A program made the position numbers and the translations under genes. This document shows, in pieces, positions 1 through 52,616 of a stretch of 64,000 nt of DNA. This stretch comes from Gorsachius magnificus. Lineage: Eukaryota; Chordata; Aves; Pelecaniformes; Ardeidae. The notes under the pieces are model-generated. The model saw nothing but the letters and a program-made list of their open reading frames with translations. It was not told the DNA's origin and searched no databases. Numbering within the stretch: position 1 is the stretch's first letter; each line of letters starts with the position of its first letter. The stretch spans positions 1 through 64,000 of the forward strand of contig CM067083.1 of assembly GCA_034008185.1 (NCBI GenBank), given 5' to 3'.

Positions 1-127
1 AACAAACCCCAGTATTTTTTACACGTTGTCGTTATTAAAATGTAAATAATCTACTGGCTTGAACAGAACTGCTCACCATAGTGGCTTAGCCTGTATCTCG
101 TCTAAGTTACTGTTTGTTTCTTGGCAG

Positions 128-256
128 GGTACACAGGACTATAAAACCTACGATAAAACATGGAGGGAGAAACATGCTTACAGGGATAAGCTAAACGGAT
201 TACGTGCACAAGATCTGATATTACTTAGTTTTAATTCTAGTGAATCAGAACACTAA
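128..256 (+). other. possible plus-strand terminal exon (unrecognised)
   Basis: A good acceptor (TTTGTTTCTTGGCAG) at 127 is followed by an open frame of 42 codons and a TAA: it starts GTQDYKTYDKTWREKHAYRD and ends LLSFNSSESEH. I do not recognise the protein. It would lie antisense within the third intron of the NAA20 remnant. It may be chance; there is no clear AATAAA close downstream. Confidence 0.15.
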
Positions 257-364
257 AAGCAAAATTCTGGGTCTGTTTCATGCAAATCAAGTACCTAAGC
301 CATAGACAGGTGTCTGTAGAAAGATTACTTTAAATGTAAGTTTAAAAATAAGTATAGTACTCAC

Positions 365-502
365 TTTTCTGAAATGTCTTCCAGTAGTTCCATCGATTTA
401 GCAGCCAAATGCAGCCATCAAAATTCTGGTGCAACAGAGAGAGAGCAGCAACATGTCCATGTCATTCTTCTCTAGCCACAGAGCCTTCCGCTTTACCCAC
501 TG
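365..502 (-). pseudogene. NAA20: NAA20 remnant, exon 3
   Basis: After an intact acceptor (TGTTCACAG) the frame reads VGKAEGSVAREE, TGA, HGHVAALS. A 2-nt insertion in a CT run shifts the frame, after which it continues VAPEF, TGA, WLHLAAKSMELLEDISE and a GTGAGT donor. The family sequence has Trp at the first stop and Arg at the second; CGA to TGA is typical CpG decay. This is the acetyl-CoA-binding core of the GNAT fold, so the product cannot be functional. Confidence 0.88.
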
Positions 503-520
503 CTGTGAACATACAGAGCC

Positions 521-1372
521 TCAGAGCAGTGGCACCTCTGGAATAATGCGCCACCCACAGCTATACACCTTTACAAAAGAACCATGCAGCGTATAAACAA
601 ACATTTCAGTGATTGTGGTAAAGGCTCAAACAGGCATGTCTATGTTATCATTCTGTGATTCAGCAACCACTAAAACCGTCATTTTGCTCAAGTATTACAC
701 TAGTTTCTTGACTAGCGTACAAAAAAATATTTTTTTTTGCAAATTCATTGTCTGAGGCGTGACTGCCACATGCAAATTTTAAGCAATTCTCACTAGTCTT
801 TAACTGAGCAGAATTCAGGATCGTACTAAAATAATGGAGGAATGGAGGGCTAGAAGCCTAAAACTAACTCACCATCCTGGCAGCTACTGGAGACTTTTGG
901 TGACTATGGGGGAATAGAGTTTGGGAAGCTTTGCCAATCTGACAACTGAAAGCTAAGGCCCTGCAAGCACAGTATGTTTGAGAAAAAAAAAAAAAGAGGG
1001 GGGGATGTTTTTTGGGGGGCTTCTTTGTACTTCCTCTCCTTTCTACACAGAACCAAACCAGTGTTAGTTCACTAATATTCACACTTCCACATGGTACGCT
1101 TATATCAGTCACTGCTAATAACCAACTGATGTGGCAAGTACAGAGAAAGCTTCTGTACAGCAAATGCTTTAAGCTTTATTAAGTACTTTATTTCCCAGGT
1201 CCCTGCAAAGACCCTTACTCTGCCTCTTCCCAAAGGAATAAACAAACCAACAGTTCTAATTGGAACAAATTCTGAAAAACATGAACATTCCATGGCAAAT
1301 AAGCAACTGACATCCTGACCCAGAGCTTTCCCTTACAAGACAATACAAAACCCAAGCCCAGCATTTTTTACT
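521..1372. other. no gene seen; NAA20 remnant intron 2, 3' part
   Basis: AT-rich sequence with an A/G run near 978-1007 and nothing recognisable. Confidence 0.6.
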
Positions 1373-3048
1373 TAGAATCATAGAATTGTTAAGGTTGGAA
1401 AAGGCCTCTAAGATCATCAAGTCCAACCATCAACCCAACACCCCCATGCCTACTAAACCATGTCCCTAAGTGCCATGTCTACACATTTTTCTGAACACCT
1501 CCAGGGATGGGGACTCCACCACCTCTCTGGGCAGCCTGTTCCAATGCTTGACCACTCTCTCAGTAAATAAATTGTTCCCAATGTCCAGTCTAAACCTCCC
1601 CTGACACAACTTAAAGTCATTTCCCCTCGTCCCATCGCCTGTTCCCTGGGAGCAGAGCCCAACCTCCCCCCGGCTCCCCCCTCAGGCAGTTGAGGGCGTC
1701 CCCTCAGCCTCCTCTGCTCCAGGCTGAACCCCCCCAGCTCCCCCAGCCACTCCCCAGCAGCCTGGGGCTCCAGACCCCTCCCCAGCTCCGCTGCCCTTCT
1801 CTGGACACGCTCCAGCCCCCCCAGGTCCTTCTGGGAGTGAGGGGCCCAACACTGAACCCAGTATTCCAGGGCAGGCTCACCAGTGCCCAGGACAGGGGCA
1901 TGGTCACTGCCCTGCTCCTGCTGGCCACACCAGTCCTGGTACAAGCCAGGATGCTGCTGGCCCTCTTGGCCACCCGGGCACACTGCTGGCTCATGTTCAG
2001 CCGCCTGTCAAACAGCAAACCCAGTATCACTGGGCAGCTTTCCAGCCCCTCTTCCCCACGCCTGTAGTGTTGCGTGGGGTTGTTGTGACCCAAGTGCAAG
2101 ACCCAGCACCTGGCCTTGTTGAACCTCATACAGTTGACCTCGGCCCATCGATCCAGCCTGTCCAGGTCCTTCTGCAGAACCCTCCTACCCTCGAGCAGAT
2201 TGACACTCCTGCCCAGTTTGGTGTCATCTGCAAACTTACTGAGGGTGCACTCGATCCCCTTGTCCAGATCATTGATAAAGACATTAAACAAGACCAGCCC
2301 TAGAACTGAGCCCTGGGGGACACCGCTTGTGACTGGCCACCAACTGGATTTAACTCCATTCACCACAACTCTCTGGGCTTGGCCATCCAGCCAGTTTTTT
2401 ACCCAGCGAAGAGTACACCCATCTAGACCATGAACCGTCAGCTTCTCTAGGAGAATGCTGTGGGGGAGATGGTGACAAAGGCTTTGCTGAAGTCCAGGTA
2501 GGTAACATCCACAGCCTTTCCCTCATCCACTAGGCAGGTCACCCAGTCATGGAAAAAGATCAGGTTGGTCAAGCAGAACCTGCCTTTCGTGAACCCATGC
2601 TTGGCTGGGCCTGATCCACTGGTTGTCCTGCACATGACTGGTGAGCACACTGAAGATGAAGCGCTCCATAATCTTCCCTGGTACAAAGGTCAGGCTGACA
2701 GGCCTGCAGTTCCCCCATCGTCTTTCCACCCCTTCCTGTAGATGGGTGTCACGCTGGCAAGCCTCCGGTCATCTGGGACCTTCCCTGTTAACCAGGACTG
2801 CTGATAAATGATGGAGAGTGGCTTGCCAAGCTTCTCCACCAGCCCTCTCAGTACTCTCAGGTAGATCCCATCCAGTCCCACAGACTTGTGGGTGTCCGGG
2901 TGGCACAGCAGGTTGATAACTGCTTCCTCCTGGATTATGGGGGGGTTTATTCTGCTCTCTGTTGCTGTCTTCCAGCTCAGGGGGCTGAATACCCTGGGGA
3001 TAACTGGTCTCACTATTAAAAACTGAGGCAAAGAAAGCACGATGACTG
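1373..3048 (-). mobile_element. CR1 LINE, longer truncated copy, in NAA20 remnant intron 2
   Basis: Minus-strand pieces match the CR1 reverse transcriptase in order. They run from about 3048 (LSIIYQQSW, VTPIYRKG) through [12 protein letters not shown] and YLDFSKAF to [10 protein letters not shown] and the catalytic FADDTKLG. The 3' end at 1373 has the CR1 terminus. Frameshifts break the ORF into several frames, so the copy is dead. It covers more of the RT domain than the other copies here. Confidence 0.93.
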
Positions 3049-3405
3049 ACATGACAACTTACTGATGACTGTGTGAGATCAGAACTGAGTGCAGGGGCTT
3101 AATTCCAGGATTACAGAAATATTTGTACACCTACTTTCACCTGTATAAAACCTGGGTGGACATTAGCGCAGTCAAGAGCCCTTGCCATGCTAGGAACATC
3201 CAACCAAAACCTACTGCTGTAAGTCCTGCATAATACCTTTAGACATTAACAAAACAGGAAGATGATACATAACATTTCTCTTCCCTGTTGGGTATTTGGA
3301 AAATGCAAAGAATAAGAGAAGCTCCTGCGTTATAACCCCACAGGTGTCACAGAGTGAGATGGTAACACCAGAAAACCAAGCACCGTAGAACTGCACCATG
3401 CTCAC

Positions 3406-3514
3406 TGTAACCCATCAGCTCCCCGCCGGGCACCTTGGCAGCAGCGAACTACTCCGGCCATTGGTACTGCAGGCAGAAGGGCGGTCCGTACTGGGGCGCC
3501 CAGTAAGGAGCAAG
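3406..3514 (-). pseudogene. NAA20: NAA20 remnant, exon 2
   Basis: The translation reads LAPYWAPQYGPPFCLQYQWP, E, stop (TAG), F, then AAAKVPGGELMGY. Family landmarks YG.PF.LQY, WPE.F and PGGELMGY are in order. Two codons are lost before WPE, and the Tyr after WPE is a stop. The exon ends at GGTTACA|GTGAGC, a good donor in the phase needed by exon 3. The 5' boundary is poorly defined because the acceptor side is GC-rich and decayed. Confidence 0.78.
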
Positions 3515-3725
3515 CTGCCACTGCCACGGCGGCTGCTGCCCGTGCCAGGCCCCGCGCCTCCTCCTTGGCGGCAGCGGGAAGGACACGGTCTCTGCCAGTG
3601 GGTCCCAGTTGTTGCTGGGGAAGAGCAAGGCTTCCCGCAGGCCCGGGCCCTGGGGGCTGAGGGGGCACCTGAGGGGCGGAGGAGCCGCCTGTGCGGCACA
3701 CGGGCCGGGCGTGGTGGAGGGCGAG

Positions 3726-4453
3726 AATCATAGAATCACTTTGGTTGGAAAAGCCCTTTAAGATCATCGAGTCCAACCGTTAACCTACCCCTGCCATCCC
3801 ACCACTAAACCCTGTCCCTCAGCACCTCATCTCTCCTTCTTTTAAATACCTCCAGGGATGAGGACTCCACCACCTCCCTGGGCAGCCCATTCCAGAGCCT
3901 GACAGCCCTTTCGTGAAGAAGTTTTTCCTAATGTCCAGCCTAAACCTGCCCTGGCGCAGCTTCAAGCCATTCCCCCTCGTCCTGTCATCTGTTACCGGGG
4001 AGAAGAGGCCGACCCCCACCTCGCTACAGCCTCCTCTCAGGCAGTTGTAGAGGGCGATCAGGGCTCCCCTCAGCCTCCTCTTCTCCAGACTAAACACCCC
4101 CAGCTCCCCCAGCCGCTCCTCGTATGACTTGTGCTCCAGACCCCTCCCCAGCTTGGTTGCTCTCCTCTGGACCTGTTCCAGCAAGGCAACATCTTTCTTG
4201 GAGTGAGGGGCCCAAAACTGAACACAGCATTCGAGGTGCGGCCTCACCAGCACCGAGTACAGGGGCACGATCCCTGCCCTGCTCCTGCTGGCCACACCAT
4301 TCCTGATACAGGCCAGGATGCCATTGGCCTTCTTGGCCACCTGGGCACACTGCTGGCTCATACTCAGCCGGCTGTCAATCAGTACCCCCAGGTCTTTTTC
4401 CACCAGGCAGCTTTCCAGCCACTCTGCCCCAAGCCTGTAGCGCTGCGTGGGGC
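3726..4453 (-). mobile_element. CR1 LINE, 5'-truncated, in NAA20 remnant intron 1
   Basis: Minus-strand translation gives the C-terminal part of the CR1 reverse-transcriptase ORF over about 190 codons, ending at 3819 with the frame still open. The CR1 3' UTR follows, and the element ends in the ATTCTATGATTCT-type terminus at 3726. The 5' end is truncated near 4453, as usual for CR1. It splits the CpG-rich block in two. Confidence 0.93.
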
Positions 4454-4454
4454 T

Positions 4455-4810
4455 CAGCAGCAGGGACAGGAGGCGACGGCGGCCTGCGCTCTTGGGTGGA
4501 AGCAGAAGAGATCGTCACTGGCAAAGGCGCCATGCCGCCGCCGGGCCTGCCACTGCTAGGCCTGCCGCCGCCCCAGGGCCCCTTCCGCCGGCCCCCCCCC
4601 CGGGGCTGCCGCTGGGCGCGGGCGCCGAGAGCAGCAAGCGGGCGGCCGGGAAGGCTGAGCCCGCCGGCGGCGGAGGGAGGAGCGGCGGGGCCGGGCGGCG
4701 CTGGGAGCCCGGCCCCGGGGCAGGGGGAGCCCGCGCAGCGCCCAGCGCCACCGCCAGCAGCACGGCCCGGGCCAGCGCCCGCTCGGCTTTACCTTCCTGT
4801 CTAAAAGGGG
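4455..4810. promoter_or_regulatory. CpG-rich block at the 5' end of the NAA20 remnant
   Basis: Very GC-rich, CpG-dense DNA continues in character at 3420-3725 on the other side of a CR1 insertion. Together they look like one CpG island, about 0.7 kb without the insert, spanning NAA20 exons 1-2. Long overlapping ORFs on both strands here are a by-product of high GC content. Whether it still initiates transcription cannot be seen. Confidence 0.65.
4495..4533 (-). pseudogene. NAA20: NAA20 remnant, exon 1
   Basis: An ATG at 4533-4531 is followed, two bases later and therefore out of frame, by codons for [12 protein letters not shown]. The family N-terminus has AFTCDDLFRFNN at this point. About ten bases between ATG and the Ala codon are missing. 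No clean splice donor remains after it. It sits inside a CpG-rich block, as expected for a housekeeping first exon. Confidence 0.7.
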
Positions 4811-7567: not shown

Positions 7568-7885
7568 TTAAGAAGCTGAGTCACCGTTGTTTTGAAAAAT
7601 GGCACCGTATGGATCACTGTTAATGCGCTTGTAGACAAAATGAAAGACCTGGGGTTGCGGACGGCTGTGCAACTCTGCCTTAATTTTCTGAGGGTAGGTG
7701 TCCTCTGTCAGTTGCTGCCAGGTGTCATCAACAAAAAGAAACAGGCTATATTCTTCTGGATTGTCCACTTTAAACTTTTCAGCACAAAGCTGACAGACAT
7801 CTTCGGTAGTGATATATGGCCTAACTAGTAAGGTCTTTCCTGTACATCCGCTGTTAACTTCCTGGAATGCCACACGAAGGTAGTT
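7568..7885 (-). CDS. RIN2: RIN2 last coding exon: Ras-association domain and stop
   Basis: The 318-bp coding part encodes residues 786-890 and a TAA stop at 7570-7568. It begins NYLRVAFQEVNSGCTGKTLL and runs through RPYITTEDVCQLCAEKFKV and YSLFLFVDDTWQQL to FHFVYKRINSDPYGAIFQNN and GDSAS. This is a ubiquitin-fold Ras-association domain at the C-terminus. The acceptor is TTCTCATCCTACAG. The exon continues into the 3' UTR. Confidence 0.97.
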   Translation of the reverse strand, partial: NYLRVAFQEVNSGCTGKTLLVRPYITTEDVCQLCAEKFKVDNPEEYSLFLFVDDTWQQLTEDTYPQKIKAELHSRPQPQVFHFVYKRINSDPYGAIFQNNGDSAS

Positions 7886-10800
7886 CTGTAGGATGAGAAA
7901 ACAGACATCAGAAACTCAAAAAACCCAAACTCATCCTCTAAAAACTGGAGAGTCAGCAACAAACAGCAAGCCCCTCAATGTTCAAGTTGTGAAACGCACA
8001 CTGGTGATTCCTGTACATTATGGCCACCTTTGTGAATAGTGATGATCATGGTAAAACTGTGGCAAGCCTGTGGTGGTCGTAACAGAAATTCATAGGCCGA
8101 CGTCCTCCTTTCCTTAGCTTACATTCTAACCTTGCAATTAAGAGTGAACAGATACAGCCTTAAAGCCACATGGAAAACACCAGTGCTTTTAATGGGCCTT
8201 CCTAGTTTGGCCTTACTAGGAAACAAAATGCTGTGAAGCAAAGTAAACATCTGAGGCAGCACGCCCGAGAGATGATGCTGCCACTGCTGGGGCAATACTA
8301 GAGAACAGAAGCTTCATGCAATATGTTAGTCAGAAGGAAAAAGAAAAAAAAAGCGTGGGCTGGCAGCACACAAGGATGCTGATCCACAAGTTACTACACG
8401 ATAAACTGTTTGCACTGATGCTGCAAGTATGGAAAATCCATCCTCACGCAGGACATTTTCATTGTGTTAACCAGTGGCAATTTGGTGTCTGAGCCTGATG
8501 GAACCAAGTTTCGTGTGACAGCATTTTCTTTTTTTAAATAAGGCTTAGAGGGATGCAGAAAGAAAATTTACTCTGCAATGCTCGAGTAAATCCGTATGAT
8601 CTTGAGGCAAAAGCTGGGTCTTTTTTCCCTGTGGACACATGCCCACAACTCTGATAATATGGATAAATTTTAAATATGCCCTGCAAAGAAGAAATGCAGT
8701 TCTACCTTTCAAAAGGCATTTCAAAAGTAAAATAAAAAGCAACAACTGGAGAAAAAAAAAAAAACACCCCACACTTTTGGACACATGAGCAAAGCAGCCT
8801 GCTGCCGCATACTTTTTTAAAAAAGAAATTAGCTGCAATTAAAGACTAAAAAGCAGCAAAATTAAAGGAGGTGGAAAGAAATGACAGTGAGAAAGACCTG
8901 TTTATTGACTGAGCTGGTACCTGTGTTTATGCTAAATAGCAATGGTAAAAATTTACATTTCATGAAAACAAGCTGTTAAAAGCTAAGCTGAGAAGAATGT
9001 TCATATGACACAGTTCCTTAAATTTTTTATAGCTTGGAGACTGAAACACTGAAGCTTTGCAGCAGCATTTAAACCATTGGGACTGAACCTGACTGAATAG
9101 AACTAACCCATTTTTGTTACCCAGCGTGAATAAATGATAATAAAAATCAGTCTTAGAGAAGGCAATACACACTACAGTTTTAACTTCTAATGTAGTTAAC
9201 ACACAGAAGACCTGTTTTTAAATGCATGTGCTTTTAGATGGACAGGATTGCTTCAAGGAGAGGCTGAACTTTGTACAAATGCCTGTAACTCATATACTAA
9301 ATATCAAAATTATTTATGCAGTATGAGAAAGTTATGTTTAATCATCATCAAAATGGGGGACTTTTTGCTTTTCCATCCTTTTGAGGGAGGGAGGATGAAG
9401 GCCTTCCAGGACCCAAAAGCTGATAATGCTGTGAGACCGCATCACAGAAATGCAGCAGTCACATCCTGGTTCAACATGGGAAAGATGAGTTGAGCTGAAG
9501 TTGTGTTAAGCATTGGTTGTAGGGAAGGCGCTTCACTTCAGGACTGCAGAATGTGGAGAAGGGAGATGCAAAACTGACACTCTGAGCAGGCAGCAAAATG
9601 CTTGAATTTGTGCCAAGCATAGCCTGGAAGTGGTGTGATTTTACTGATTCGAGGTGCCGTTTTGGAAGAGACAATAGAAGGAGAAGCACTGGACACACTC
9701 AGTGCCAGCTCTTCCCCCACCTCCTTGTATCTTCCCACATCCAGCATGGCATCTAGCTGGACGTACAATTAGCTTGGCTGAAGTTCATTTGCTGAGGAAG
9801 AGAAGGCGAAGTGAAATACAAGATCTTGCTGAAAGAAACTTCTGTCATTCAGTCATCCAGCAGAAATGCAAGGTGATGAATTTTCTTATGAACAGTGTAG
9901 TGTTTTGCTAGAGAAGAGCAAAGACTCATGCTACTTGAGTCTGATACCTAACTACAGGTAAGCAGAATATAAAATAGATCCCAGTAAGATGGACTAGATT
10001 TGTGCACTGTCCATAGTTTGGAATTTCTGTTAATCAGTTCTCCTCTTCCTAAGAGAGGCAAATTGTGGAAAACTGCTGCTTTTCCCAACTCCTTCCTGTT
10101 CAGTCTTGTGCTGTAGTCATTTGCATGGGCACTGATAAAGCAGAAGGAGCCTCAACTGAAAGGTTTCATCATCTCCTGATGACCCCCCACTTTCATTTCT
10201 CAAGGTCTTCACTACATCATAACTAACTGATGGTTGTCGTTAGCCTGTCTGGCAACTTTGTGCTGTGGTAAGAACTGTAAACAAGTGAACACAGAAGAGT
10301 AAATCCTTTCTTCTCCATTCCAACATCCTCCTTGCTTCAGTCCACAAACCGATGCATCTGAATAATCAACAGCACACTATATGAAAGACATGCAGGCCTG
10401 GTTTTAAAAGAAGAGGTAATCCCAACTGTTTTGTTATTCTTCAGTTGAAGTTACTGCCCTACTCTGAAAGAGCAGTAAGAAATGGAGGGGAAGGAAAAAA
10501 CACAAACAAACATGAAGACATCCATAGTATAAAACTCTACTCCTTGCTTAAACTTTAAAACCATAGGCAAGCTTTTCTCCCACACCTCTCCTCTCTATTA
10601 CCTGCTGTATGCCGCCATTAGCTACTGGGGAATTGTGCTGATTTATACCACTAGAGATCTGGATTTGTTCTTTTTAGCAGTAAAGCATACAAAGCAGCTG
10701 ACTCTAAGATATGATTCAGTTTGTCTTTGCTCTGTGTGACTTAAATAGAAGGGAGGGTGGGAAAGCTCCATTATTTAGTGTTTTCTTTGGACCATCATAA

Positions 10801-13437: not shown

Positions 13438-15573
13438 CTGGGTTGAAGGGAACACAGACAGTAGTAAAACAAACCACACCCTTTTACCAGTTGCAGTGTT
13501 TGAAAGGAAATCATTATTCTGCTGCCTTCACTGACCAGTATGTTTGTATTACTCTAGAGCTTCCTGTTATCAATGTGCAGCAAAGAGAACGTCATCTGAC
13601 ACTCACTGGACAGGAGACCAACACCAGCTTCATCCTGTACTTCTAATAAGCACAGATCCAATGATGCACACTTTGAGGCATGCAAGGGAATTTAAAGACT
13701 GGGTTCACCTTGGGATCAGCTCAACTGGTCAACTCACAAAAGGCTGTCATGCCAGCCTGGCCTGACCCCCACCTGCACTTCTATCACTGGCTAAGAGATG
13801 ATGAATAGTGCATTTTCTTTATACATGCAGGGATCACATCCTCTTTCTGGAAGCATCCAGCCACAAACACCAGTTTCTTAGTCTGAATCTCTGCAGAGAA
13901 GCCTGGATATAAAGCCTATTAGATTTTACATGAAAACTTAGCTCATTTCCTTGACAGAGCATAGTCAAAAACACCAGTGAGCAAAACCTCGTATCATATA
14001 CAACTAGCCAGTGAACCATCATTGTCAATGGCAGCATGCAGCTAACACACAGAGACTACGCTGTACCTCGGTCTGTCTGTGCTCCTATCACTTTTATTGC
14101 ATTTAAACTTTATTAGAACATACTATGTGGCCAAATCTCTGGGTCTGGCCAACCTGTGTTCATTGCAGAACTGCTGTGGTGGTCACTTAAAACCACCAAG
14201 AGCAGAAGCCAGCTTAAACTTTGGTGAAACTCCAGATGACTGAAGGGCTGATATCTAAAGTTACGCCAGCTAAGGCGTACCCTCCAGGTATTACACTATT
14301 ACCTGGCTGAGAGTACATGACAAAGCAGATACTCAAACAGCTGCTGGCTCAGTGCCTTTTTTCTTTAAAAAAAAAAAAAAACCAAAAAAAAACTAGCTTC
14401 GTGTGACAAAACAAGACAACCCAAGGAGCATTTGCCACATCTTAGCTCAAGTCCCTCAGTGCAACAGTTAACTGGCAGCAACCTCTCAATATTTTTCTTC
14501 TGCATCTTGGAAATACCTTACCCAATGTGATAACACAGCATGCAGAAAAGAGTTTACAGCACTCGAGGCCAAGATTCCTCCATCCATTTTAAAATGCAGG
14601 ATTTTGCGCAGAAATAATAAGCTGGGCAAGAGCTCGGACCTAAATCTTGCAGAAGTGTATCGGGTATTTAACAGCTGCCACAAGCTTTCACCATTCATCT
14701 CAAATCTCAAAAGAAAGTAGGTGTTTTGGTCAGCACTGGACCCAGCTGCACATTCAGTGCTCACTTAGAAAGAAAACTGCCAGCCACCTGCAGCAGCTTA
14801 TACTTGCTTAGGGAAAAAAAGTCTCCCACTACCACCAGCATTGCTTCACCTTAGCTAGACCTACCACAGCAGTGTATGATAAGACATCAGGCAACAGAGT
14901 CCCACCTATGAATTCATGCCATCCAGAACAGCATTTTAATTGTTCCACTGACCACTCAGCAGGTCTTAACTGGTCTGTAGTTCCATTTCATTATCTAGGT
15001 TTCAAGTTCACATTTGGACTCTTGCTACAGTGTAGAAATAGATGTTACGTCTGTTCCAAATAACCCGAGAGTGTCCAAATGAGTACATTCAGAGGCACAG
15101 CAAGCCAAAAATACTGCATCAGAGGCTGCCTTCCTCCACCCATTAACACAGTGCCCTTGTAGTTGTCATATTGCATACATGCTATTGAATTATTATAGCT
15201 AAATACAGGGTGTTACCTCTATTACAATTTCCAGAAAAATACTCATTTAGAACCAGTGTCAAATTCAAGGCTTACAGGACAGTCTTTCTGATAGCCAACT
15301 TCAAAAGTTTATAGTTAAGCAAAGCTGGTTTTTTTTAAGCTGCTTCAGAACTCTGCTTTACCCGGAATTTTTAAGATGTGCTGCCAGATGTATCAGGGAA
15401 ATCAGGAAAGAAGCAAAGACAAGGAATCCCTCTCAAAAGGTCAAGGAGATGCTAGGGGAGCTCCAGGAGAAGCAGACTTATCTGCAGAATCAGGTGGTCC
15501 GATTTCCTCCACCCCAGAAAGACAACCCCAGGTTTGGAATACCAGTGAACTTGAACCATGAGAAGCACCATAC
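13438..15573 (-). other. RIN2: RIN2 intron before VPS9 core exon
   Basis: About 2.1 kb with an A-rich run near 14366-14391. No gene or repeat family recognised. Confidence 0.85.
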
Positions 15574-15879
15574 CTGAGTTATTCTCCATAACAGTGTAGA
15601 TCAATTTGCAAACTCTCAGCAGCAGCATGACTTTCTTTTCAGGTGAATACATTTTCTGCATGGTCATGAACTTGACTTTAATCTTTTCAACATCCACAAA
15701 GTCTGGTGTTGGAACAAACACACCCAGTTCCTGAGGATTCCTCTGCCGCACCAACTGCAGGTTTTCCTTTAGCTGTTTCCAAGAACCATCTGCAGTATGA
15801 AACTCTTTCAACATAGCTTCAATGTGGCCCTTCAACGGCTTCAGAATGCACTTATGCATCGCCTTCTCCAGGACAACAT
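15574..15879 (-). CDS. RIN2: RIN2 exon: RIN homology to VPS9 domain
   Basis: The 306-bp exon encodes residues 585 (part) to 687 (part): VVLEKAMHKCILKPLKGHIE, then NLQLVRQRNPQELGVFVPTP and KVMLLLRVCKLIYTVMENNS. This is the helical bundle leading into the VPS9 exchange domain. The acceptor is TTTTCCTGTTGCAG and the donor TCAG|GTATGG. Phases match both neighbouring exons. It is followed by a 2.1-kb intron. Confidence 0.96.
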
Positions 15880-17030
15880 CTGCAACAGGAAAACACAAGT
15901 CCAGCTGACTTCTTCCTCTAGAGCAGAGCCAATATTAATATAACCATTCCCAAAAGAGACACTGTAGAGCAAAACCTACTTGCTAAAGCCTATTTATTAT
16001 ACAAGCTGAGTTTCCAGATGCTTGTTAACAAGAAAACCAAAGGCAGAGCAGAATCTGTATTCCATTTTCATTTATGGCAATGTGGTAAATACAAAACAAA
16101 ACCCCCACAAAGACAGACTACAGACTGTCACAAAAAAAAAAAAAAAAAAAAAAGCAAAGCAAGCTGTGGCTCCAGTTAACTTTTTCTTTTGTTGGCCAGA
16201 AGTCTCTGAGTTTTATTTTACTTTGAGCTTAGCCTTTAACTCCCGAACTTAAAGTAAACCACATTCAAACCCGTAAGTTTTATCTGCGTTGGCATGAAAG
16301 CCCATCCTTTTTGCATAGTTTCCATCAGAGAAGCACGGTCTCCTAAAACTTGGCTCACTTTGTCAAGATCTTTATGAACTTGGACAGATTATGGGCTTTA
16401 AACTATAAATGAAAACCAAGCTGTGTTTGTCCAGCTTCAGATTTCATCATGCAAGCTTATATACAGCTTTGTCATCAAGTTTGCAGTTCTTTGTTTGGCA
16501 ATAGTGTGCACCACTAACTTAGGGTGGGTTTTTCTATTCTTGTTCTACTCCAGTTTTCCTTTAACAGTTGTCCTCTGTTTTCAAAGTATGGACCACATCA
16601 ACAGAGAAAGCTCTTTGCTAAACATTTTCTCTGTAAACCTTTACTTTATAAGCTAATGTCCTCTCCTGCTCAGTGTCCTTATGGCAATATAGCTTACATT
16701 AATTATTAGCTTACATGAATCATTTGTACCATGGTGAACTCCCACAAGCACAAAAAGAAACTGGTGATCCTTCAGCCTGGCCACTGCACCAATACCCTGA
16801 CGGTGGGGCAGGACCAGCGCCTAGAGTAGGCAGATGTACTAGGGGAGCACAAGGGACCAGGAGCAGAACGAGGAGAGACTCTGACACTGCCAGATCACAC
16901 ATGTATACAAGCTAGCAGCGGACACTCCTGCTACGAGTGGTGACTCATTAAAGTTTCATTAAACCTCGTGCCCTTTCCAGGTTCTTCGTCTGTTCTTATA
17001 CCACGGTCTCTTTCTTGTCTCTACTCACTC

Positions 17031-34556: not shown

Positions 34557-35142
34557 TGTGCTGGTTTTGGCTGGGACATAGTTAATTTTCTTCATAGCAG
34601 GAAGTATGTGGCTATGTTTTGGATTTGTGCTGGAAACAGTGTTGATAATTCAGTGATGTTTTGGTTATCATTGAGCAGTGCCTACACAGCACCAAGGCCC
34701 TTCCTGCTCACCCCACCAGTGAGTGGGCTGGGGGTGCATCAGGAGCTGGAGGGGGACACGGCTGGGAGAGCTGACCCCAACTGACCAAAGGGATATCCCA
34801 CACCGTGTGACATCATGCTCAGCATGTACAGCTGGGGGAAAAGGAGGAAGGGGGGGACACTGGGAGCGATGGCGTCTGTCTTCCGAAGTCACTGTTATGT
34901 GTGATGGAGCCCTGCTGTCCTGGGGATGGCTGAGCACCCACCTGCGGATAGGAAGTGGTGCATGAATTCCTTGTTTTGCTTTGGTTGTGTGCGCAGCTTT
35001 TGCTTTCCCTATTAAACTGTCTTTATCTCAGCCCACGAGTTTTCTCGCTTTTACCCTTCTGATTCTCTCCCCCATCCCACCAGAGGAGAGCAAGTGAGTG
35101 GCTGTGCAGGGCTTAGTCGCCAGCTGGGGTTAAACCATGACC
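34557..35142 (+). mobile_element. solo LTR of an avian endogenous retrovirus (antisense to RIN2)
   Basis: It begins TGTGCTGGTTTTGGCTGGGA and ends near CAGCTGGGGTTAAACC, the same ends as the LTR at 51096-51656. It also shares an internal ATTAAACTG poly(A) signal (35011) and the block before the TATA position. The TATA region has decayed to CATGTACAG. No target-site duplication is clear and no viral gene is next to it. The family assignment (ERVL- or ERVK-like) is tentative. Confidence 0.85.
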
Positions 35143-51095: not shown

Positions 51096-51656
51096 TGTCA
51101 CGGTTTAACCCCAGCTGGCAACTGAGCACCACACAGCCACTCACTCACTCACTGTCCGTCCTGTCCGCCCCACCGGTGGGATGGGGCAGCGATTCGGAAG
51201 AGTAAAAGTGAGAAAACGTGTGGGTTGAGATAAGAACAGTTTTAATAACTGAAATAAAATACAATAAAACAGTAGTAGTAATAATAATAAAAGAATACAC
51301 ACAGCAGGTGATGCATGATGCAATTGCTCACCACCCACCGACCGGTGCCCAGCCAGTCCCCGAGCAGTGGCCCCCCAGCCAATTTTCCCCCAGCTTATAT
51401 ACTGAGCATGACATCATGGTGTGGAATAGCCCTGGGGCCAGCTGGGGTCGGCTGTCCTGGCTGTGTCCCCTCCCAGCTCCTTGTGCCCCCGGCAGAGCAG
51501 GGGAAGCTGAAAAAGTCCTTGATGGGTATAAGCACTACTTAGCAACAACTAAACCCTCAGTGAGTTATCAACATTGTTCTCATCCTAAATCCAAAACACA
51601 GCACTGTGTCAGCTACTAGGAAGAAAATTAATTCCATCCCAGCCAAAACCAGGACA
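51096..51656 (-). mobile_element. solo LTR of an avian endogenous retrovirus (sense to RIN2)
   Basis: On the minus strand it starts TGTCCTGGTTTTGGCTGGGA and ends GGGTTAAACCGTGACA, a TG...CA element of about 561 bp. It keeps a TATATAAG box (51401-51394) and an ATTAAA poly(A) signal (51246-51241). The flanking 5-mers are gactc and gattc, a probable 5-bp target-site duplication with one change. No internal viral genes remain, so it is a recombinant solo LTR. It is less decayed than the copy at 34557. Confidence 0.9.
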
Positions 51657-52616
51657 GATTCAGACAGCATGAATTCACATAGCAGCCCAGTACAGTATTC
51701 CCTAACCAAACCTATCCTAAACATTAGAATGCCACAAATACCCATGTACTATAATTGTTTACATTCCTAGAATCCATGAACGAAATAATGAAATGCAAAC
51801 ATCCTAAACCACGACGTTTCCTTTCATAACATATCACGCTATGCTCATTGTCAGCTGATTCCTCATTCAACAAGTCTGATCTTTTAGAAACTGGCAGGGG
51901 TGACAACGTCATTCCTACATACAGGCCACAAACATACTCATCGCAGCTCCCCAGCACTCTCCTACCAGAGCACATACATTCCATTTCTGCGTTTTACATC
52001 TTTCAGGATGTCATACAAGCAGCAAAAATGAGAGCGAGTGTTCACGAGAAGCACCACACTCACCTTTCTGAAGCTGCTCTGTGCTCTCTACACACGCGTC
52101 ACTGCTGTGCATCAGGGAACACACGTGCCCGGGGGTCAGACACAGACCCCTGCCTTGCTTAGAAGCCCGGCACAGCTAGAGGTCTTCTCACTCAAATTCA
52201 ACTCATGAAGAGTTACCAGTCCCAAGAGGAAGGCAGGTGGCTTTGACTTGATGTCTGTTTCAGGACATTTTTAGAAAAATCATTCATCCATCACTGCAAG
52301 GCAACTGAATTCCTGGGGTTTTGTGTTGGAATAGAAATAAGCTTGTACAGAGGAGTAACGAAACTGCCATCTTTCTGAGACCACATGCGTGCTTCTAATT
52401 GGCAAGGGAACACAGGCTGAAGACAGCGAGGATCGGTATCAGACTAGACAAACGAGCCTCCACACTTACAACCCCCCTTTCCTGCCAGCATCTCATTTTT
52501 CATTCTTTCTGGAAACCTGCATCCTCTTTTCCTTCCTGTTTTGATAAGCAGAGCAGCGCAGCTCTCAAAGAGCACCCTGTGTGACAAGGTGGCAAAGTGC
52601 CAGAAACAAGCCAAAC

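Follow-up and report, generated by a model that had tools for sequence, protein, structure and literature searches.

A functional DPY19L2 gene was copied to another chromosome in primates, and the passages describing it place a pseudogene, DPY19L2P1, at the syntenic ancestral locus (PMC1475853). That a gene can relocate by duplication while its ancestral copy dies is thus already known, and NAA20 in the bird Gorsachius magnificus is probably a further case. The window, i.e., the whole stretch of 64,000 nucleotides analyzed here, is the first 64 kb (C3:1-64000) of the 126-Mb contig C3, which starts at window base 1. Its minus strand carries a RIN-family gene (RA, RIN1-like and VPS9 domains by Pfam), which from its position we take to be RIN2, and then pieces of NAA20. 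Like an ordinary unprocessed pseudogene, this NAA20 has kept introns, carries disabling lesions, shows changes consistent with neutral decay and has a preserved paralogue elsewhere. However, in ordinary duplicated pseudogenes it is more often the daughter that dies, while here the copy in the ancestral place appears to have died. The likeness to DPY19L2 lies in the copy on another chromosome and the pseudogene at the syntenic ancestral locus, with the DPY19L2 daughter described as staying active (PMC1475853). In contrast, the same passages count eight related low-copy repeats and six transcribed pseudogenes for DPY19L2, whereas NAA20 is a housekeeping enzyme and was found in two copies.

The interest of the case lies in the gene, as Naa20 is called never or rarely lost across eukaryotes (PMC4748286). 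That survey agrees with our results insofar as a conserved NAA20 copy exists here too, and its passages on Naa20 are silent on position or relocation. No published report of NAA20 relocation in birds was found in a literature coverage that was partial. We consider it very likely that the locus reflects a duplicative relocation between chromosomes, from contig C3 to contig C5, with death of the ancestral NAA20 copy.

Two exons in the window match human NAA20 residues 27-102 (E=1.2e-29; PDB phmmer, 6vp9), using a query in which X replaced each stop and two residues were supplied by hand where the exons meet. With X at the exon border, the Pfam match to Acetyltransf_1 is weak (E=0.0055, 17.4 bits vs. 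a cut-off of 20.7), and the three window matches in a genome search with human NAA20 are individually weak (E=0.001-0.019). All pieces lie on the minus strand, and both exons were delimited by phmmer and by codon comparison with the copy on C5. The human exon 4 equivalent (residues 57-102) at 365-502 keeps its acceptor TTCACAG and its donor GTGAGT (364-359), but contains two TGA stops (462-464 and 418-420) and, near 437-448, a 2-nt insertion relative to C5. The human exon 3 equivalent (residues 27-56) at 3406-3490 keeps an acceptor AG and the donor GTGAGC, and has a TAG stop (3449-3451) and a 6-nt in-frame deletion. A remnant of exon 1 (approximately 4495-4533), found by alignment to C5 exon 1, lacks the bases after the ATG and has lost its donor GT, the only splice site not retained in this copy. 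The original prediction had read a decayed, intron-retaining NAA20 beside RIN2 with three in-frame stops, a start-proximal deletion and a 2-nt frameshift, all of which we recovered; the 6-nt deletion was absent from its list. Its exon bounds were exact for 365-502, but the exon it placed at 3406-3514 spans 3406-3490.

A microexon remnant, equivalent to human exon 2, was identified at 3587-3614; no other site on the minus strand of the window matches as well. It retains acceptor CTTCCCCAG and donor GT, and its 8 residues read NWDPLAET vs. human NLDPLTET. The score is 31 with the next best at 21, and none of 300 base shuffles of the 1043-bp sequence 3491-4533 reached 31. The exons previously numbered 1, 2 and 3 are present and readable in order, but since the microexon had been missed they correspond to exons 1, 3 and 4 in the human exon count. 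The microexon is presumably part of the NAA20 substrate-binding loop.

Two insertions separate the window copy from its C5 counterpart. A long interspersed nuclear element (LINE) stretch, which we take to be CR1-type, occupies 1376-3096 in an NAA20 intron (minus strand; RVT_1 match in the open reading frame (ORF) 1707-2522) and coincides with a gap in the C5 alignment. A CR1-type LINE at 3724-4452, also on the minus strand, lies between exon 1 and the microexon; it is absent from the C5 intron and 94% identical to a copy at C5:56171788-56172530. The 3' end of the gene is missing. A CRNKL1 intron fragment at 12-240 (plus strand, convergent with NAA20) is 82% identical to an intron of intact CRNKL1 at C3:344470-344698, and it joins the NAA20 intron at a deletion junction at 233-240, where the two alignments overlap by 8 bp. 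Window 1-240 is 80% identical to C5:56138216-56138449. On C5 the two points of the junction are separated by 3.4 kb that include the last two coding exons, and so the window copy has lost approximately 3.4 kb with these exons (human 5 and 6). There is thus no need to seek exons 4-6 below position 1, as had been proposed. In a DNA search of the genome, window 1-1375 matched five times, to its own sequence, to two pieces of C5, to the CRNKL1 intron and to 44 bp on C8. Given these lesions, the window copy is no longer capable of producing the protein, and introns, splice sites, disabling lesions and neutral changes all fit its assignment as an unprocessed (duplicated) pseudogene.

A search of the whole assembly (1.18 Gb, 36 contigs) for a functional NAA20, as suggested earlier, returned one other locus. 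Human NAA20 gave eight candidates, all eight scored, with five at C5:56139379-56143630 and three in the window, and no third copy was found in the assembly by this protein search. Five coding exons are preserved on C5, with 17/18, 30/30, 44/46, 48/50 and 29/30 residues identical to human NAA20 (94-100%); the microexon was not found there. The original prediction had offered two options, and the loss of the syntenic copy with reliance on another fits C5 as the sole other NAA20 locus found, whereas the death of a tandem duplicate has no support in the assembly, where no second NAA20 was found on C3. We infer that the C5 copy is expressed and now supplies the catalytic subunit of NatB. It sits between WDR47 (PDB 7wej, E=1.9e-134) and a gene with MutS-domain exons, presumably MSH4; neither WDR47 nor MSH4 is known as a neighbor of NAA20 in mammals. 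Opposite the 3' end of NAA20 on C5 lies a decayed CRNKL1 exon in convergent orientation. Good alignment to the window ends approximately 230 bp upstream of the ATG on C5, and its last stretch in the window, in the NAA20 5' flank (4659-4745, minus strand; BLASTN 78% over 90 bp), roughly marks where the duplicated segment stops on the upstream side. The region C5:56136580-56137900, which lies between WDR47 and the CRNKL1 fragment, has numerous long open frames that overlap one another, suggesting GC-rich DNA. A genome search with Acetyltransf_1 gave seven matches, one being the C5 NAA20 and the other six not returned by the NAA20 protein search. Among these, locus L001 was rejected as a further NAA20 copy, as it is NAT8-like by eye. 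Beside the L001 gene (approximately 1840-2520 of the locus, C4:82555880-82556560), the translations of both strands repeat a single motif many times (e.g., VCHGGASRAGAGDKCAT), the DNA being a tandem repeat.

Alignment of the two copies extends across introns as well as exons (83% identity in 1181 columns and 75% in 495), and the pair therefore arose by duplication at the DNA level and not by retrocopying. A processed pseudogene was rejected because introns are present, and a unitary pseudogene or species-wide loss because the C5 copy exists, albeit without a detected microexon. The introns differ by 13.7% (0.154 substitutions per site over 983 sites) and the exon 4 equivalent by 10.2%, a lower value that is expected if the C5 side is constrained. 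The two larger exons hold 28 coding changes, of which 20 are replacements, in line with the 71.6% expected under a neutral model with the transition share of the intron (P=1.0). The C5 protein has scarcely changed, which places most of the replacements in the window copy. The coding changes thus look like neutral decay; the window copy has probably escaped selection for the greater part of its history after the duplication, and we saw no sign of remaining function in it. With an avian substitution rate near 1.9e-9 per site per year, the copying may be dated to roughly 40 million years ago, give or take a large factor, i.e., to tens of millions of years. The distance of 0.154 per intron site makes the move datable and traceable in relatives.

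In mammals the gene order is RIN2-NAA20-CRNKL1, with NAA20 and CRNKL1 convergent, and SLC24A3 follows RIN2. The same arrangement is seen on the RIN2 side of the locus, where two Na_Ca_ex exons (two of the 18 matches), presumably SLC24A3, lie beyond RIN2 on the same strand at C3:119254 and C3:156758. The pseudogene is accordingly at the syntenic locus, with RIN2 adjoining and SLC24A3-like exons beyond. Beside NAA20, CRNKL1 is represented by the intron fragment at 12-240. Intact CRNKL1 lies 343 kb from NAA20/RIN2 and shares the strand of RIN2 (13 of the 14 matches). A CRNKL1 piece lies on the 3' side of NAA20 in both copies and is convergent with it, the window holding the intron that neighbors the CRNKL1 exon of C5, and these pieces are probably a trace of the order RIN2-NAA20-CRNKL1. 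With intact CRNKL1 distant and the SLC24A3-like exons in place, the old neighborhood appears to have been broken between NAA20 and CRNKL1 and part of CRNKL1 duplicated. Either the first approximately 340 kb of C3 are inverted relative to the expected order or the scaffold was flipped, and both give the same picture. Over 233 columns, the CRNKL1 pieces differ by 0.218 (C5-window), 0.239 (CRNKL1-C5) and 0.285 (CRNKL1-window) substitutions per site. The C5-window distance is the smallest in 66% of bootstraps, which does not separate the order of events; the three pieces are about equally distant, and the events may thus be close in time. In C3:325000-344999, neither a stretch of N nor a double TTAGGG was found as a sign of a gap or telomere. 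Left of CRNKL1, four of many ORFs were compared with Pfam and none matched. Just past the CRNKL1 3' end, a 74-aa open frame (C3:341628-341849, plus strand) is protein-like by eye and has no Pfam match.

Taken as a sequence of events, a segment of at least 5.6 kb, comprising the gene with its introns, a short promoter stretch and the CRNKL1 fragment, would have been copied to C5 between WDR47 and the MSH4-like gene. With two copies present, the RIN2-side copy would have lost part of its start region, gained stops and a frameshift and received two LINEs, and the 3.4-kb deletion would have removed its last two coding exons, while the C5 copy would have taken over the supply of the NatB catalytic subunit. 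We infer the direction of the move, from beside RIN2 on C3 to C5. The reverse direction, with C5 as the old place and the RIN2-side copy as a newcomer that failed, would fit the better preservation of the C5 copy. Yet RIN2 adjoins the window copy with SLC24A3-like exons beyond, a CRNKL1 piece accompanies both copies while intact CRNKL1 is on C3, and the mammalian order RIN2-NAA20-CRNKL1 does not include WDR47 or MSH4; we therefore give this direction scant credence. A tandem duplication beside RIN2, with a live sister just left of C3:1 and unassembled, draws on the contig beginning at window base 1, which leaves the leftward sequence out of view. It is very improbable, as no NAA20 match was found on C3 outside the window and the C5 copy is enough to account for the gene having survived. 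The lesions were seen in assembled sequence alone, which would allow for sequencing or assembly errors; however, 13.7% intron divergence, two LINE insertions, a 3.4-kb deletion and a neutral replacement ratio are far beyond base-calling error, and this explanation has next to no probability.

Several points weigh against relocation to a functional C5 copy. The neutrality test has only its 28 changes, with both branches counted. The position of intact CRNKL1, C3:342722-354486 (minus strand), is at odds with an ancestral block left unbroken at the window. As assembled, the C5 copy is without the microexon, and splicing exon 1 straight to the following exon would shift the frame; the C5 gene is thus a putative functional copy, and this is the single result that speaks against its being intact. 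An NLDPLTET-like stretch was sought in the 145-bp C5 intron 1 (C5:56143433-56143577) and not found (best score 9). This intron lies in a GC-rich 5' region and holds 16 C in a row. The remainder of the protein has hardly changed, and bird assemblies, mainly Sanger and Illumina in the cases described, have lacked 5' exons rich in GC (PMC9516821); for these reasons we think that the gap is an assembly error in GC-rich DNA. The same passages report that long-read assemblies regain such exons, which weakens the assembly-error view, as an assembly of 36 contigs may well be long-read. A real deletion of the microexon, leaving an altered NatB subunit or reliance on a copy outside the assembly, would also agree with the best score of 9 on C5 against 31 in the dead copy, and by eye a cryptic AG located 25 nt ahead of the following C5 exon would bring the frame back by adding 8 different residues. 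On the other hand, this acceptor has no pyrimidine tract by eye, the gap is filled by the 16 C in the kind of region where 5' exons were lost, and the 94-100% identity of the other C5 exons to human indicates that selection was not relaxed for long; damage to the C5 copy is therefore unlikely. It seems rather improbable that neither copy encodes a standard NAA20, such that the C5 gene truly lacks the microexon, makes an in-frame variant or uses another start and has a changed NatB specificity in this lineage, with the dead copy keeping the original microexon.

If relocation to C5 is correct, annotation by synteny would report NAA20 as lost in this bird, and the 5' end of the surviving copy may be misassembled. 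The retained CRNKL1 pieces would record the rearrangement that broke the old neighborhood. Hybrid incompatibility has been proposed to arise when an essential gene relocates by duplication, and if relatives kept NAA20 beside RIN2, the offspring of some hybrids would inherit no working copy.

Elsewhere in the window, three RIN2 exons were delimited on the minus strand. The exon at 7571-7915 holds the RA domain (Pfam RA, 3.2e-16), and the one at 15455-15934 holds the end of the RIN1-like domain (PF23268, 3.3e-6) and the start of VPS9 (PF02204, 0.00073, below its cut-off). The large exon at 24083-25279 matches PF23268 (2.3e-28), with no match in a PDB search. Rfam at gathering scores gave no matches within the window. 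An interspersed element at 34561-35137 and 51104-51657 is also present at C5:56149927-56150507 (71-76%) and C5:56131831-56132095 (83%).

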